This document shows, piece by piece, positions 3,719 to 62,756 of a stretch of DNA of 64,000 nucleotides; position 1 is the first letter of the stretch, and each line of letters starts with the position of its first letter. The notes beneath the pieces are model-generated. The model did no database searches. It was not told the DNA's origin and saw nothing but the letters and a program-made list of their open reading frames with translations. Source of the stretch: Chloroflexota bacterium (GTDB lineage: Bacteria > Chloroflexota > Dehalococcoidia > Tepidiformales > Tepidiformaceae); contig JACRBT010000020.1 of assembly GCA_016234445.1 (NCBI GenBank), positions 62,001 through 126,000 of the forward strand, given 5' to 3'. A program made the translations under genes and the position numbers.

Positions 3719-4485
3719 ACGCGCGTTGGCGGGCCGCCGTTGTGTTCGCCTTCGCTGTGGGGCTGCTGGCCGTTGCCGCGGCCTGTGGCGGGGGTGACGA
3801 CGACGCCAGCACGCCCACCGGCGGGAGCTCTCCGGGGGCGGGCACGACCACGGCGGCGCCCACCTCCGCGTCTTCGCCATCGACCGACGCCGTCCTCGCC
3901 GCCATCCAGCAGCTGGCCATCCCGGCGGGCCTCGCCGAGGGCCGGACGTTGGGCAAGAGCGACGCGCCGGTGCGGCTCACCATGTGGGAAGACTTCCAGT
4001 GCCCCTTCTGCCTGAAGTACACCGCCCAGATCGAGCCGACGATCGTCGACGAGTTCGTGAAGACGGGGAAGGTCCGGATCGAGTTCCGCCAGTGGCCCAT
4101 CCTCGGGCAGGAGTCGCTGAACGCGGCCATTGCCAGCCAGTGCGCGGCCGAGCAGAAGAAGTTCTGGGAGTATCACCGGGCGCTCTTCCTGATCCAGGCG
4201 GAAGCCGGGCAGCACCTGAACGAAAAGCTCAACGCCGGCCGCTTTAGCGACCCGGCCTTGCTCGGCATCGCCGACAGGGTTGGGGTCGACACCCGGACAT
4301 GGGTGGCCTGCTACCAGGCGAAGGACTACCTCGCGACAACCCAGGAAGACGCCCGCGCCGCCCAGACGGCGGGCCTCAAGGGGACGCCCGGATTCGCCAT
4401 CAACGGCGCCGCCATCCAGACGCCGGCCTCGCTCGACGCCTGGCGCAAGCTCCTCAACGACGCGGTGGCGAAAGCGAAGCAGTAG
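3715..4485 (+). CDS. DsbA-like thioredoxin-fold lipoprotein
   Basis: 256 residues. A signal peptide ends in a lipobox (AVAAAC), so the protein should be lipid-anchored on the outer face of the membrane. A Ser/Thr/Pro-rich linker follows. The thioredoxin_4/DsbA-type domain has the redox motif CPFC at Cys96-Cys99 (WEDFQCPFC), and the cis-Pro loop is probably KGTPGFAING. The family makes or isomerises disulfides in exported proteins. It is translationally coupled to the hydrolase upstream. The last 32 nt overlap the convergent ORF6N gene. Confidence 0.9.
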   Translation: MNARWRAAVVFAFAVGLLAVAAACGGGDDDASTPTGGSSPGAGTTTAAPTSASSPSTDAVLAAIQQLAIPAGLAEGRTLGKSDAPVRLTMWEDFQCPFCLKYTAQIEPTIVDEFVKTGKVRIEFRQWPILGQESLNAAIASQCAAEQKKFWEYHRALFLIQAEAGQHLNEKLNAGRFSDPALLGIADRVGVDTRTWVACYQAKDYLATTQEDARAAQTAGLKGTPGFAINGAAIQTPASLDAWRKLLNDAVAKAKQ

Positions 4486-5011
4486 GGGCCGCGGCGTCCG
4501 GTTCCCGGGTCGGGAATCCGAGCGGCTTCCGTGACGGGACCGGGTTGGGCGGCATCAGGTCACTGATCGCCGTGAAGATGAGGGAGACGCGGTGTTCGAG
4601 GTGGCCGACGCGCTCGGCGAGTTCGTCGCGGCTGGAGAGAAGCGCCCGCAGCTGGACGAAGGCGCGCATGATTTCGATGTTGACCTGGACGGCGCGGGGG
4701 CTGCGAAGGACGCTCGAGAGCATGGCGACGCCCTGTTCGGTGAAAGCGTAGGGCAGGTAGCGCCGCCCGCCCTGACCCCCGTTTGAGATCACAGTTTGTG
4801 ATCTCAAGATCGCCGCCTCCTCAGCGGTCAGCTGGAACATGAAGTCTTCAGGGAAGCGTTCGGGGTTCCGCTTCACGGCTTGGATGAGTGCCCGCGTCGA
4901 CACGCCATAGAGGCCGGCGAGGTCTGCGTCCAGCATCACCCGGAGACCGCGGACGACAGCGATCGAATGCTGGATGTGCTCAGGCGCGACGATGGCGGTC
5001 CCGTCAGTCAT
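4454..5011 (-). CDS. ORF6N domain-containing protein
   Basis: 185 residues. The N-terminal 100 match the ORF6N pattern: VVRGLRVMLDADLAGLYGVSTRAL, then VKRNPERFPEDFMFQLT, then YAFTEQGVAMLSSVL. This domain is a KilA-N-related putative DNA-binding module found in phage and chromosomal proteins. A helical region (RDELAERVGHLEHRV) and a Pro-rich tail follow. The gene lies between the DsbA-like gene (32-nt convergent overlap) and the repeat cluster beside the first Y1 transposase. It could be a mobile-element or phage remnant. Function is inferred only from the domain. Confidence 0.85.
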   Translation of the reverse strand: MTDGTAIVAPEHIQHSIAVVRGLRVMLDADLAGLYGVSTRALIQAVKRNPERFPEDFMFQLTAEEAAILRSQTVISNGGQGGRRYLPYAFTEQGVAMLSSVLRSPRAVQVNIEIMRAFVQLRALLSSRDELAERVGHLEHRVSLIFTAISDLMPPNPVPSRKPLGFPTREPDAAAPTASLSPPRR

Positions 5012-5065: not shown

Positions 5066-5250
5066 CCATCCGCACCGCGACTGGAAAGGAGCGGCGTCGC
5101 CACCCCCAACACACCATCTCCCACCGCCAGCCCACCCGCCATCCGCACCGCGACTGGTAACGAGCGGCGTCGTTGCACGCTTCACACCATCGTCGGCCGT
5201 CAGCCCGCGCACCATCCGTACCGCGACTGGAAAGGAGCGGCGTCGCCACC
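5066..5250 (+). repeat. Three family A (GGAG-type) REP copies, 3' side of RAYT1
   Basis: Three copies of about 38 bp lie at 5066-5104, 5139-5176 and 5212-5250. They share CCATCCG(C/T)ACCGCGACTGG, then (AAA/TAA)(G/C)GAG, then CGGCGTCG. The GGCG-T-CGCC palindrome follows a GGAG tetranucleotide, the foot type described for REP sequences recognised by Y1 transposases. All three point towards the transposase gene. A fourth copy lies on its other side in opposite orientation. Confidence 0.85.
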
Positions 5251-5270
5251 GCCAACACCCATCCCCGCCT

Positions 5271-5768
5271 TCACTGCCCATCCGTCACATACCGGCATGC
5301 CAGTTCGACGCTCTCCTCAGTCCACAAGTACCGCGTGCTCCCATGCCGCGACCACACCTTCTGTCCCTGCCTCCGCTCGCCCGCCTCGATCAGCGCCCTC
5401 GTCGCCCACCGCTTCAGCGAACCCATCACCACCTCCGGCTCGACCTCACTCCGCATTACCACATGGACGTGCTCGTTGCGGACGTTCAGCGCCAGCAGCT
5501 CCCAGCCGGTGTGCACGCACCGCTCGCCGATGGCCCGGGTCACGGTGGCTCGGTCTCCATCGCTCAGGAACCCTGGGCTCTGGCGAAGGCGTTCGCCCTC
5601 GACCTGCTCTCTCCACGGGTTCGCGGGGAGCGGTTCCGTCCCGGCGACATTGTGGGAACGATCCACCGAGCCCCGCGCGTCGCCGTGAAGCCACGTCCCA
5701 TAGCACCGGAAGCTGATGAAGTAGGCGAGCGGTATACCTGGTGGCGAGGGACGGCCGGGCGGCGGCAT
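5271..5768 (-). CDS. REP-associated Y1 transposase (RAYT1, IS200-like)
   Basis: 165 residues. The Y1/HUH signatures are His100-Val-His102 (RNEHVHVVM) and the catalytic Tyr160 in ELACRYVTDGQ. The N-terminal PLAYFISFRCYGTWLHGDARGS block is typical of chromosomal IS200-like/RAYT proteins. These single-strand nucleases cut and join DNA by a 5'-phosphotyrosine link, and RAYTs act on REP hairpins. I placed the start at the ATG at 5768, because a TACCAT box ends 6 nt before it. The gene lies between three family A repeats (5066-5250) and an inverted fourth (5827-5865), as in known REPtrons. All catalytic residues are present, so it may be active. Mobilisation of the repeats is inference. Confidence 0.88.
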   Translation of the reverse strand: MPPPGRPSPPGIPLAYFISFRCYGTWLHGDARGSVDRSHNVAGTEPLPANPWREQVEGERLRQSPGFLSDGDRATVTRAIGERCVHTGWELLALNVRNEHVHVVMRSEVEPEVVMGSLKRWATRALIEAGERRQGQKVWSRHGSTRYLWTEESVELACRYVTDGQ

Positions 5769-5774
5769 GCGGGG

Positions 5775-5780
5775 ATGGTA
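5775..5780 (-). promoter_or_regulatory. -10 box of RAYT1, leaderless arrangement
   Basis: On the minus strand TACCAT is followed by CCCCGC and then the ATG. The second Y1 transposase has TATCCT, the same CCCCGC and then GTG. The shared six-base spacer suggests a conserved promoter for the two transposases. Confidence 0.5.
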
Positions 5781-5826
5781 CCGGATAGGGAAAGAGGCTG
5801 GCGGTTGGCGCAACATGGTCGTCGAG

Positions 5827-5865
5827 CGTTGCGACGCCGCTCCTTACCAGTCGCGGTGCGGATGG
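5827..5865 (-). repeat. Family A REP copy, 5' side of RAYT1, inverted
   Basis: Read on the minus strand this has CCATCCGCACCGCGACTGG, then TAAGGAG, then CGGCGTCGC, matching the copies at 5066-5250 but in opposite orientation. With them it brackets the transposase gene. Confidence 0.85.
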
Positions 5866-5918
5866 AGGGTGTGCGGGTGGGGCGCGGTACGGATGCGCGC
5901 GGCGAGTGCTACAGACCC

Positions 5919-22480: not shown

Positions 22481-22984
22481 ACCAGCCCCCTGGGCCGCGC
22501 CGGAAATCGCGTAGTCCGAGCGTCCTCCTTTCGAGCATAGGCAGGCCTTCGCCTGTGTACTAGAGATAACGGTGCGCGTTCGAAAAGGTTAATTGCAGGG
22601 GGTGGCCCGCCGCAGCCGTTCCCGGATATTCACCTGATGGCCACTTTCGCCGATCGCGCGAGGGCAGCAGCCTCCATTTCCTGCCCCGTCGGCGGGACGG
22701 TGGGGCGGGGAACCGCGCGGTGTGCCAGGGGAGGCCCTTCCTCCCATCCCGGTGCCACGACTGTGAAGAAGTGGTTCCCCCGCGTGTCTGCAAGTTCGGC
22801 GCCTCGGATGTCACAGCGCGCCCCGCCGAGGGTCGTCTCCGGGCCTTCCCTGGCCCCAAACGGCGCCCGGACGCTGATTCCACACACCTGCCACCTGGCC
22901 GTCACGCAACCTTCCCGGCCAGGCCATCCCCGCCGGTCGTAGGAGAAGGTAGGGTCATGGGGAAGGGATCCGAGGGAGCTGCGA
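22481..22984. other. 504-bp gap between the sigma operon and the TadG-like gene
   Basis: No gene was found. On the sigma-gene side there is a small hairpin (CAGGC-CTTC-GCCTG, 22542-22555) and an AAAGGAGG. A family C repeat lies at 22751-22784. The rest, 22560-22750 and 22785-22984, shows nothing I can identify apart from the likely promoter region of the plus-strand gene. Confidence 0.6.
22751..22784 (+). repeat. Family C REP-like repeat
   Basis: GGTGCCACGACTGTGAAGAA, then GTGGTTCCCC. The same unit occurs at 29021, 58700 and 62634. It matches family A in CGACTG..AAGGAG..GG, so it is probably a distant relative of it. This copy has AAGAAG in place of AAGGAG. Confidence 0.7.
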
Positions 22985-24130: not shown

Positions 24131-24259
24131 GGTAGCCGCGGGTAGGGATTCTGCCCGTGGCCGCACCGCCTGCCCGCCCTGCTCCGCGCCAGCCTCCACC
24201 CGTGCCGCGCGGCCTGCGCTCCATCCGCACCGCGACGGGCACGGAGCGGCGTCGCCCCT
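24131..24259 (+). repeat. Composite B+A REP unit
   Basis: A family B copy (24131-24198, GGTAGCCGCGG ... GGCCGCACCGCC ... GCGCCAGCCTCC) is joined by CCGTGCCGCGCGGCCTGCG to a family A copy (24221-24259, ending GGAGCGGCGTCGCC). The same fused order and joint occur at 28845-28964. Confidence 0.85.
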
Positions 24260-28844: not shown

Positions 28845-28964
28845 GGTAGCCGCGGCCCCCCGTGGCCGCATCGCCTGCCCGCCTCGTCCCGCGCCAGCCT
28901 CCATCCGTGCCGCGCGGCCTGCGCATCCATCCGCACCGCGACGGGCACGGAGCGGCGTCGCCGG
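28845..28964 (+). repeat. Composite B+A REP unit
   Basis: Family B at 28845-28902 (GTAGCCGCGGCCCCCCGTGG then CCGCATCG), the joint CCGTGCCGCGCGGCCTGCG, and family A at 28927-28964. The order, joint and spacing match 24131-24259, and both units follow a heptanucleotide repeat. Confidence 0.85.
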
Positions 28965-29020: not shown

Positions 29021-29112
29021 CGGGGGAGACCACTCCTTCACAGTCGTGGCACGGCGATCCAGGGCACTCGGACCCATCCGCACCGCGACGGGCACGGAGC
29101 GGCGTCGCCGGT
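29021..29112. repeat. Inverted family C plus family A
   Basis: A family C copy on the minus strand (29021-29055) is followed after 18 bp by a family A copy on the plus strand (29074-29112). The same C-minus/A-plus pairing occurs at 62634-62700. Confidence 0.75.
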
Positions 29113-58699: not shown

Positions 58700-58817
58700 G
58701 CCGTGCCACGACTGTGAAGGAGTGGTTCTTCGCCTGCCGCCCGGTGGGCCGAGAGCCGAAAGCCGCCAGCCGTGGGGGACCAGCGGCGCCACTCCCTCGC
58801 GGTCGCGGTACGGATGG
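58700..58817. repeat. Family C and inverted family A repeats
   Basis: Family C is on the plus strand at 58700-58734 (CCGTGCCACGACTGTGAAGG then AGTGGTTCTTCGCC). A family A relative is on the minus strand at 58779-58817 (CCATCCGTACCGCGACCGCG then AGGGAGTGGCGCCG). They lie between the MBL and sortase genes. Confidence 0.75.
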
Positions 58818-62551: not shown

Positions 62552-62756
62552 CATCCGTACCGCGACCGCGAGGGAGCGGCGCCGGTCGTCTTACCACCAT
62601 GGTTCCCAGGGCCCGCTAGTGGAGGACACGCGGAAAACCACTCCTTCACAGTCGTGGCACGGCGAACCGCGGCCACGCCCCATCCGTACCGCGACCGGTA
62701 GCCGCGGCCGACCATGGCCGCACCGCCTGCCCGCCTCGATCCGCGCCAGCCTCATC
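62552..62756. repeat. Mixed A, C, A+B repeat cluster before obg
   Basis: Family A (plus, 62552-62587), family C (minus, 62634-62665), family A half (plus, 62680-62699) fused to family B (62698-62756, GGTAGCCGCGGCCGACCATGG then CCGCACCGCC). All three families lie within 205 bp. The C-minus to A-plus spacing resembles that at 29021-29112. Confidence 0.8.

Follow-up and report, generated by a model that had tools for sequence, protein, structure and literature searches.

The window, a 64-kb stretch of DNA (64,000 nucleotides) for which a Chloroflexota host is supported, as had been suspected from its letters, carries a confirmed open reading frame on the minus strand that encodes RAYT1, a Y1/HUH transposase of class 3 type (5271..5768, 165 aa). 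Translation from another in-frame ATG, at 5816, would lengthen the protein to 181 aa, but the start at 5768 is preferred because conservation among homologs starts at ‘PLAYFI’. The HUH codons lie at 5471-5463 and the catalytic tyrosine codon at 5291-5289. In the numbering of the 181-aa form, the HUH motif is H116-V-H118 and the tyrosine is Y176 within YVTDGQ; the alignment and an AlphaFold2 model built from four homologs place Y176 inside helix 167-179, 58 residues past the HUH motif. The core of the model is confident (block means mostly >85, residues 81 to 180), and its top Foldseek matches include the ISDra2 TnpA, the IS608 TnpA and the E. coli REP transposase 4er8, the best being 2xma and 2xm3 (IS200/IS605 TnpA). 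The Pfam Y1_Tnp profile matches with an E value of 5e-5, just above the cut-off. Thus, the original prediction of a Y1 transposase with an HVH motif and a catalytic tyrosine held, and the fold is Y1. The gene was missed by a simple codon model, which may reflect an unusual origin or decay.

RAYT1 has as neighbors an ORF6N-domain protein and a transaldolase. The ORF6N gene (4454-5011, minus strand) directly adjoins the repeat cluster described below; ORF6N-domain proteins are often phage-associated. A search of plasmids, phages and viral contigs returned no relatives, and hence nothing to indicate carriage by a phage or plasmid. A defense system was considered and rejected, as PADLOC gave no match.

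What flanks the gene? Downstream are three direct copies of a type A REP on the plus strand at 73-bp spacing: 5066..5094 (foot CCATCCGCA followed by the hairpin CCGC-GA-CT-GGAA-AG-GA-GCGG), 5139..5167 (inner stem with one mispair, CT-GGTA-AC) and 5212..5240 (foot CCATCCGTA). Upstream is one inverted type A copy (5837..5865, minus strand), its foot directed away from the gene, and a probable truncated REP with only the foot and first stem bases (5883..5895, minus strand; inverted match CATCCGTACCGCG). The three-plus-one arrangement had been correctly recognized. Its anatomy had not: the GGAG taken for a foot is the 3′ half of an internal mismatch plus stem, and the actual foot, CCATCCGYA, lies on the opposite side of the hairpin. 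Likewise, the proposed GGCG-T-CGCC hairpin occurs in two of the four copies here and in 12 of 91 RAYT1-type copies genome-wide, and is not conserved. Rfam had no match in the window.

Structure of the repeat

The conserved unit consists of a 5′ foot, CnG(A/T/C)(A/G), followed by a 20-nt hairpin with a 4-bp stem, two mismatched bases on each side (usually GA/GA), a 2-bp stem and a GNNA loop. The pairing was assessed on 164 copies gathered from stretches of the host genome with at most one mismatch to a pattern, CCRCGMCNGNNANNRAGYGG, that lets key pairing partners mismatch. Pair 8/13 occurs as T-A (76), C-G (47) or G-C (39), and 162 of the 164 copies have a Watson-Crick pair there, versus 59 expected from shuffling; pair 3/18 is G-C in 112 and A-T in 49. 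The G.A mismatch beside the outer stem is invariant (164/164), a G and an A that the search pattern had fixed, and A6.G15 switches jointly to C6.A15. Copies within the host genome are mutually related, such that the shuffle counts are not probabilities, and a test across genomes is more independent. For 32 REPs at RAYT loci of different genomes, some of which came from a structure-based scan, 98.4% of cells pair, versus 31-49% when the partners are slid, and five of the six pairs show two-sided changes. Among 22 distinct hairpins obtained from flank comparison alone, 129 of 132 cells are paired. The outer stems differ between genomes with pairing kept (CCGC, GCCC, ACAC, CCGG, ACCC, GCGC, CCAC). 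In the foot, across 38 REPs, C1 is found in 34, G3 in 37, A4 in 24 and T4 in 12.

Individual copies have unremarkable DNA folding energies (z about 0); it is therefore covariation, not stability, that supports the structure. The third loop base is free, unlike in the RNA GNRA rule. GNNA loops are favored in DNA hairpins, a preference for which the literature search returned no confirmation. One Chloroflexota relative (locus L178) seemingly has a three-base GNA loop in place of GNNA. The present analysis resolves the architecture of the repeat in finer detail than the main text of the paper that proposed class 3 (PMC6006769), a text that gives no detailed class 3 hairpin architecture.

Repeat population of the host genome

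The pattern has 155 exact matches across the host genome, compared with none for a reversed-pattern control, and there are only two transposase genes. This is the picture of many dispersed repeats and few genes that the original prediction had anticipated; the repeats are also found away from the RAYT1 locus. The host assembly is a 20-contig genome that breaks at repeat clusters, with clusters seen at contig ends at C1:88, C5:29, C6:24, C9:27, C10:409636 and C18:72. The repeats therefore probably break the assembly, and the real copy number may exceed the count.

The repeat unit is ~25 bases (foot plus hairpin), and beyond roughly −10 to +23 relative to the core the copies are no more conserved than background. 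Two feet account for most of the copies: foot I (CATCCGYA) for 91 of 164 and foot II (CGCCGTG) for 66, with seven fitting neither cleanly. Foot-I copies carry one of three tips, namely A (CT-GGNA-AG), B (CG-GGNA-CG) or C (CC-GCNA-GG). Foot-II copies are of type D (CC-GTNA-GG), type E (stem CCAC/GTGG, tip CT-GTNA-AG) or type F, in which GC/AA replaces GA/GA. The two genes differ in the repeats beside them. All four copies flanking RAYT1 are foot-I type A (foot CCGYA), whereas RAYT2, a paralog on another contig with 53-56% identity and the tyrosine motif YVSEGQ, is flanked only by foot-II copies of types D and E (CCGTG; CGTG in one copy). Hence, two paralogs in one genome appear, from their flanking sequences, to split their targets by foot. 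The foot-II repeats beside RAYT2 also contain a C-terminal relic of a third transposase gene (‘DISEARAYVLETQGPDLP’, L053 ~360-430, C1:257160-257230).

Within the window, the core pattern has seven matches versus 0.01 expected from shuffles, and several copies are far from RAYT1. A foot-II-like hairpin, CCAC...GTGG with AA replacing GA, lies at 22755..22774 on the plus strand (C9:84755), and a dispersed foot-I REP with a type B tip (CG-GGCA-CG) at 24230..24249, also on the plus strand. A three-hairpin cluster opens with a foot-I type B copy (28936..28955, plus strand), continues with an inverted foot-II type E copy (CCAC-GA-CT-GTGA-AG-GA-GTGG; 29030..29049, minus strand) and ends with another foot-I type B copy (29083..29102, plus strand), the feet of the last two facing each other at 53 nt. 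Two inverted pairs follow: 58706..58808, with type E at 58706-58725 (plus) and foot-I type C at 58789-58808 (minus), and 62560..62657, with foot-I type C at 62560-62579 (plus) and type E at 62638-62657 (minus).

Such combinations recur genome-wide, including in arrays (for example, on contig C16). Foot-II D or F copies form inverted pairs with E copies at 88-90 nt in 12 of 14 cases, with a spacer that is only partly conserved, and foot-I and E copies have their feet facing at 52-59 nt in 14 cases. Where flanks are locally duplicated (C8:171856-172203 and C1:268781-269276), the copies differ mainly in the tip (A versus C, B versus C), as though the 8-nt tip had been swapped and foot and stem retained. 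Separately, 36 of 51 foot-I clusters lie on the strand whose flanks are lower in G than in C (p ~0.005, one of several tests), a bias that type E lacks and that could be related to the replication strand.

Repeat copies are almost always intergenic (146 of 150), even though ~81% of the sequence is coding by the simple codon model. Could the repeats be retained for an RNA or host function, as terminators, mRNA ends or protein binding sites, with the transposase incidental? Their intergenic location would fit, as would some excess in convergent gaps, which hold 35 of 142 copies versus 16% of intergenic bases. However, 51 of the 142 lie in divergent-gene gaps, where transcripts do not end; the loop, with its free third base, does not follow the RNA rule; and the repeats are missing in relatives without the gene. 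We consider this explanation very unlikely.

Class assignment and occurrence in other genomes

The class 3 TnpAY1 proteins date from 2018, when a set of 24 proteins was put forward as possibly intermediate between insertion sequences and domesticated REP transposases; their reported hosts are mainly Planctomycetes, Acidobacteria and Proteobacteria, and Solibacter usitatus has about 600 class 3 hairpins (PMC6006769). Set against that published description, RAYT1 fits this little-studied class, by its tyrosine motif and the foot of its repeats, rather than the gamma-proteobacterial RAYTs. First, RAYT1 and RAYT2 both carry Y----Q, with Y and Q invariant in four aligned proteins (class 3 signature YV[VI][AENY]EQ). 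Second, the N-terminal AYFI.F..G...HGD.RGS.DR is conserved in the same four proteins, a match by description to the extended N-terminal region of class 3 (155-aa profile). Third, as for class 3 (PMC6006769), the protein combines an HUH motif with a length of about 165-180 aa, and the gene is flanked by several atypical hairpins that have a CnGA-like 5′ foot and occur in high copy alongside few genes. There are also differences from the published class (PMC6006769). The host is a member of the Chloroflexota; the feet read CCGYA and CCGTG instead of CnGA, such that CnG is retained and the fourth base is C or T in the host genome (CnGY); and at the W[TA] consensus position RAYT1 has WS (WSRHGST), its relatives having WA, WT or WS ahead of RHGST.

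The other two classes share features with RAYT1. Like the IS200/IS605 TnpA proteins of class 1 (ISDra2, IS608), it has the fold and a glutamine after the tyrosine, and those elements have end hairpins with 5′ guide tetranucleotides. Unlike them, it has no adjoining tnpB and no near-identical copies, the two copies being 53% identical, and the glutamine is one residue further from the tyrosine (Y----Q, not Y---Q); the NCBIfam IS200 profile scores 24.9 bits against a cut-off of 55. As for class 2, the original prediction had placed the locus with the REPtrons of gamma-proteobacterial RAYTs. A canonical system of that type (class 2, Bertels group 2/3) would account for the general layout of one gene, flanking REPs and many dispersed copies, and also for the REP pairs; TnpAREP/RAYT proteins of E. 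coli, Stenotrophomonas and Marinomonas likewise share the Y1 fold (4er8) and the 5′ foot plus hairpin. Yet neither the class 2 motif Y---NP nor a GT[AG]G foot (GTAG or GTGG) was found in RAYT1 and its repeats (YVTDGQ; CCGYA/CCGTG), and the foot differs in both position and sequence from the one originally described. The NCBIfam REP-associated transposase profile scores 20.4 bits against a cut-off of 80, and the hairpin, fixed at 20 nt with a GNNA loop and a GA/GA mismatch, is unlike that of class 2. The REPtron-like layout therefore stands, and the gamma-proteobacterial type is largely refuted and highly improbable.

How widespread is the class 3 type? A search with a single protein across the phylum found the host genome only, and a peptide-pattern scan with narrow patterns returned two relatives only. 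With a four-sequence profile, 13 of the 38 host-family genomes proved to have genes of class 3 type, so the poor return of the single-protein search reflects low sensitivity and sampling. The profile also detected such genes in 23 of the 247 genomes from the phylum to which L074 belongs (provisionally taken as Acidobacteriota). Recent transfer from Acidobacteriota-like genomes was considered and is unsupported, the two groups being separate, weakly, on the tree. Comparing 5′ and 3′ flanks by sequence alone revealed inverted repeats at most class 3 loci, in the form of a CnG(A/T/C)(A/G) foot plus a 20-nt hairpin with the foot outward on both sides. The genome of L074 has 69 matches to its own repeat version, many in inverted pairs, and in G568, another genome with the gene, the version bordering its own gene is dispersed in 29 copies. 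At two loci, L111 (G459) and L185 (G565), the transposase gene has one in-frame stop (TAG and TGA) with the flanking hairpins still present; these are likely to be decaying copies.

Gene and repeat occur together. In the host family, at least four repeat matches, counted with one of two patterns, are found in 12 of the 13 genomes with the gene, and in none of the 25 genomes without it, where the maximum is three over both patterns combined (G599 being counted by the second pattern only). Fisher's test gives an estimate of about 5e-9, with the threshold of four set afterwards. The exception, G550, has a gene adjoined by a different hairpin. G567 and G578, in which no transposase gene was found, have one copy each (CCGAACCGCGACCGGGAGGGAGCGG), which may be left over from a system that this genus has lost. 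Four regions of G561, a genome in which no transposase gene was found, match REP-bearing loci of G568 and have zero repeat copies; the two genomes differ by a block of about 450 nt rather than by a clean insertion. Judged from sequence, this is a comparison of matched regions with and without the repeat, and it does not give the route by which the repeats arrived. A clean empty site was sought in this comparison, with the nearest RAYT-free genome of the donor genus; at ~79% DNA identity, homology breaks near the repeats and gives no precise insertion.

A rival reading is that the gene and its two outward feet are themselves a mobile unit, in effect an IS200-type insertion sequence without tnpB, with the dispersed repeats as remnants or internally deleted copies. 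The foot-out inverted ends conserved around class 3 genes, the two to five gene copies in several genomes and the C-terminal relic beside RAYT2 would all suit such a unit. However, RAYT1 and RAYT2 are divergent, unlike the copies of an active insertion sequence, and the dispersed copies have hairpin and foot only, with no gene sequence. On balance, we regard a mobile gene unit as unlikely.

Proposed mechanism and implications

RAYT1 is very probably a class 3 TnpAY1 (HUH, single-tyrosine) transposase acting with cognate REPs, each a CnGHR foot (here CCGYA) and a 20-nt single-stranded DNA hairpin; cleavage and mobility are ascribed to it by analogy. For E. coli REPs, two stem mismatches are needed for activity and the foot is essential, and in Marinomonas a change of foot shifts the cut site (PMC8266576). 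The conserved tandem mismatch and foot of the RAYT1 repeats are consistent with that model. By analogy with TnpAREP and IS200/IS605, when the locus is single-stranded the enzyme would bind the hairpin by shape and the foot by sequence, and the foot would serve as a guide that selects a nearby cleavage site. The tyrosine would then become joined to the 5′ end and the strand would be handed to a new site. Strand transfer of this kind would spread single REPs or REP pairs, with the transposase gene itself staying at low copy (one or a few per genome).

A broader proposal is that all class 3 enzymes read one DNA shape, a 20-nt hairpin with a GNNA loop and a tandem mismatch (GA/GA, co-changing to GC/AA or CT/GG) in which stem and tip are free to covary; that the foot (CCGYA or CCGTG) is the main feature by which two paralogs distinguish their repeats; and that the repeats of both enzymes become linked, with set spacings of about 53 and 89 nt, as mosaic elements. 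We offer this combination tentatively, as a possibility to be taken seriously.

The system is of a known kind with a clearer repeat structure: a REPtron-like class 3 TnpAY1 in Chloroflexota, a phylum for which the literature search found no earlier report of such a system; nor did it find experimental work on class 3. Many more class 3 loci are now available, in two lineages, together with an explicit, covariation-supported hairpin. With two paralogs that appear to divide their targets by foot within one genome, short oligonucleotides would allow a direct test of whether the foot acts as a guide sequence and of what the stem mismatch does.
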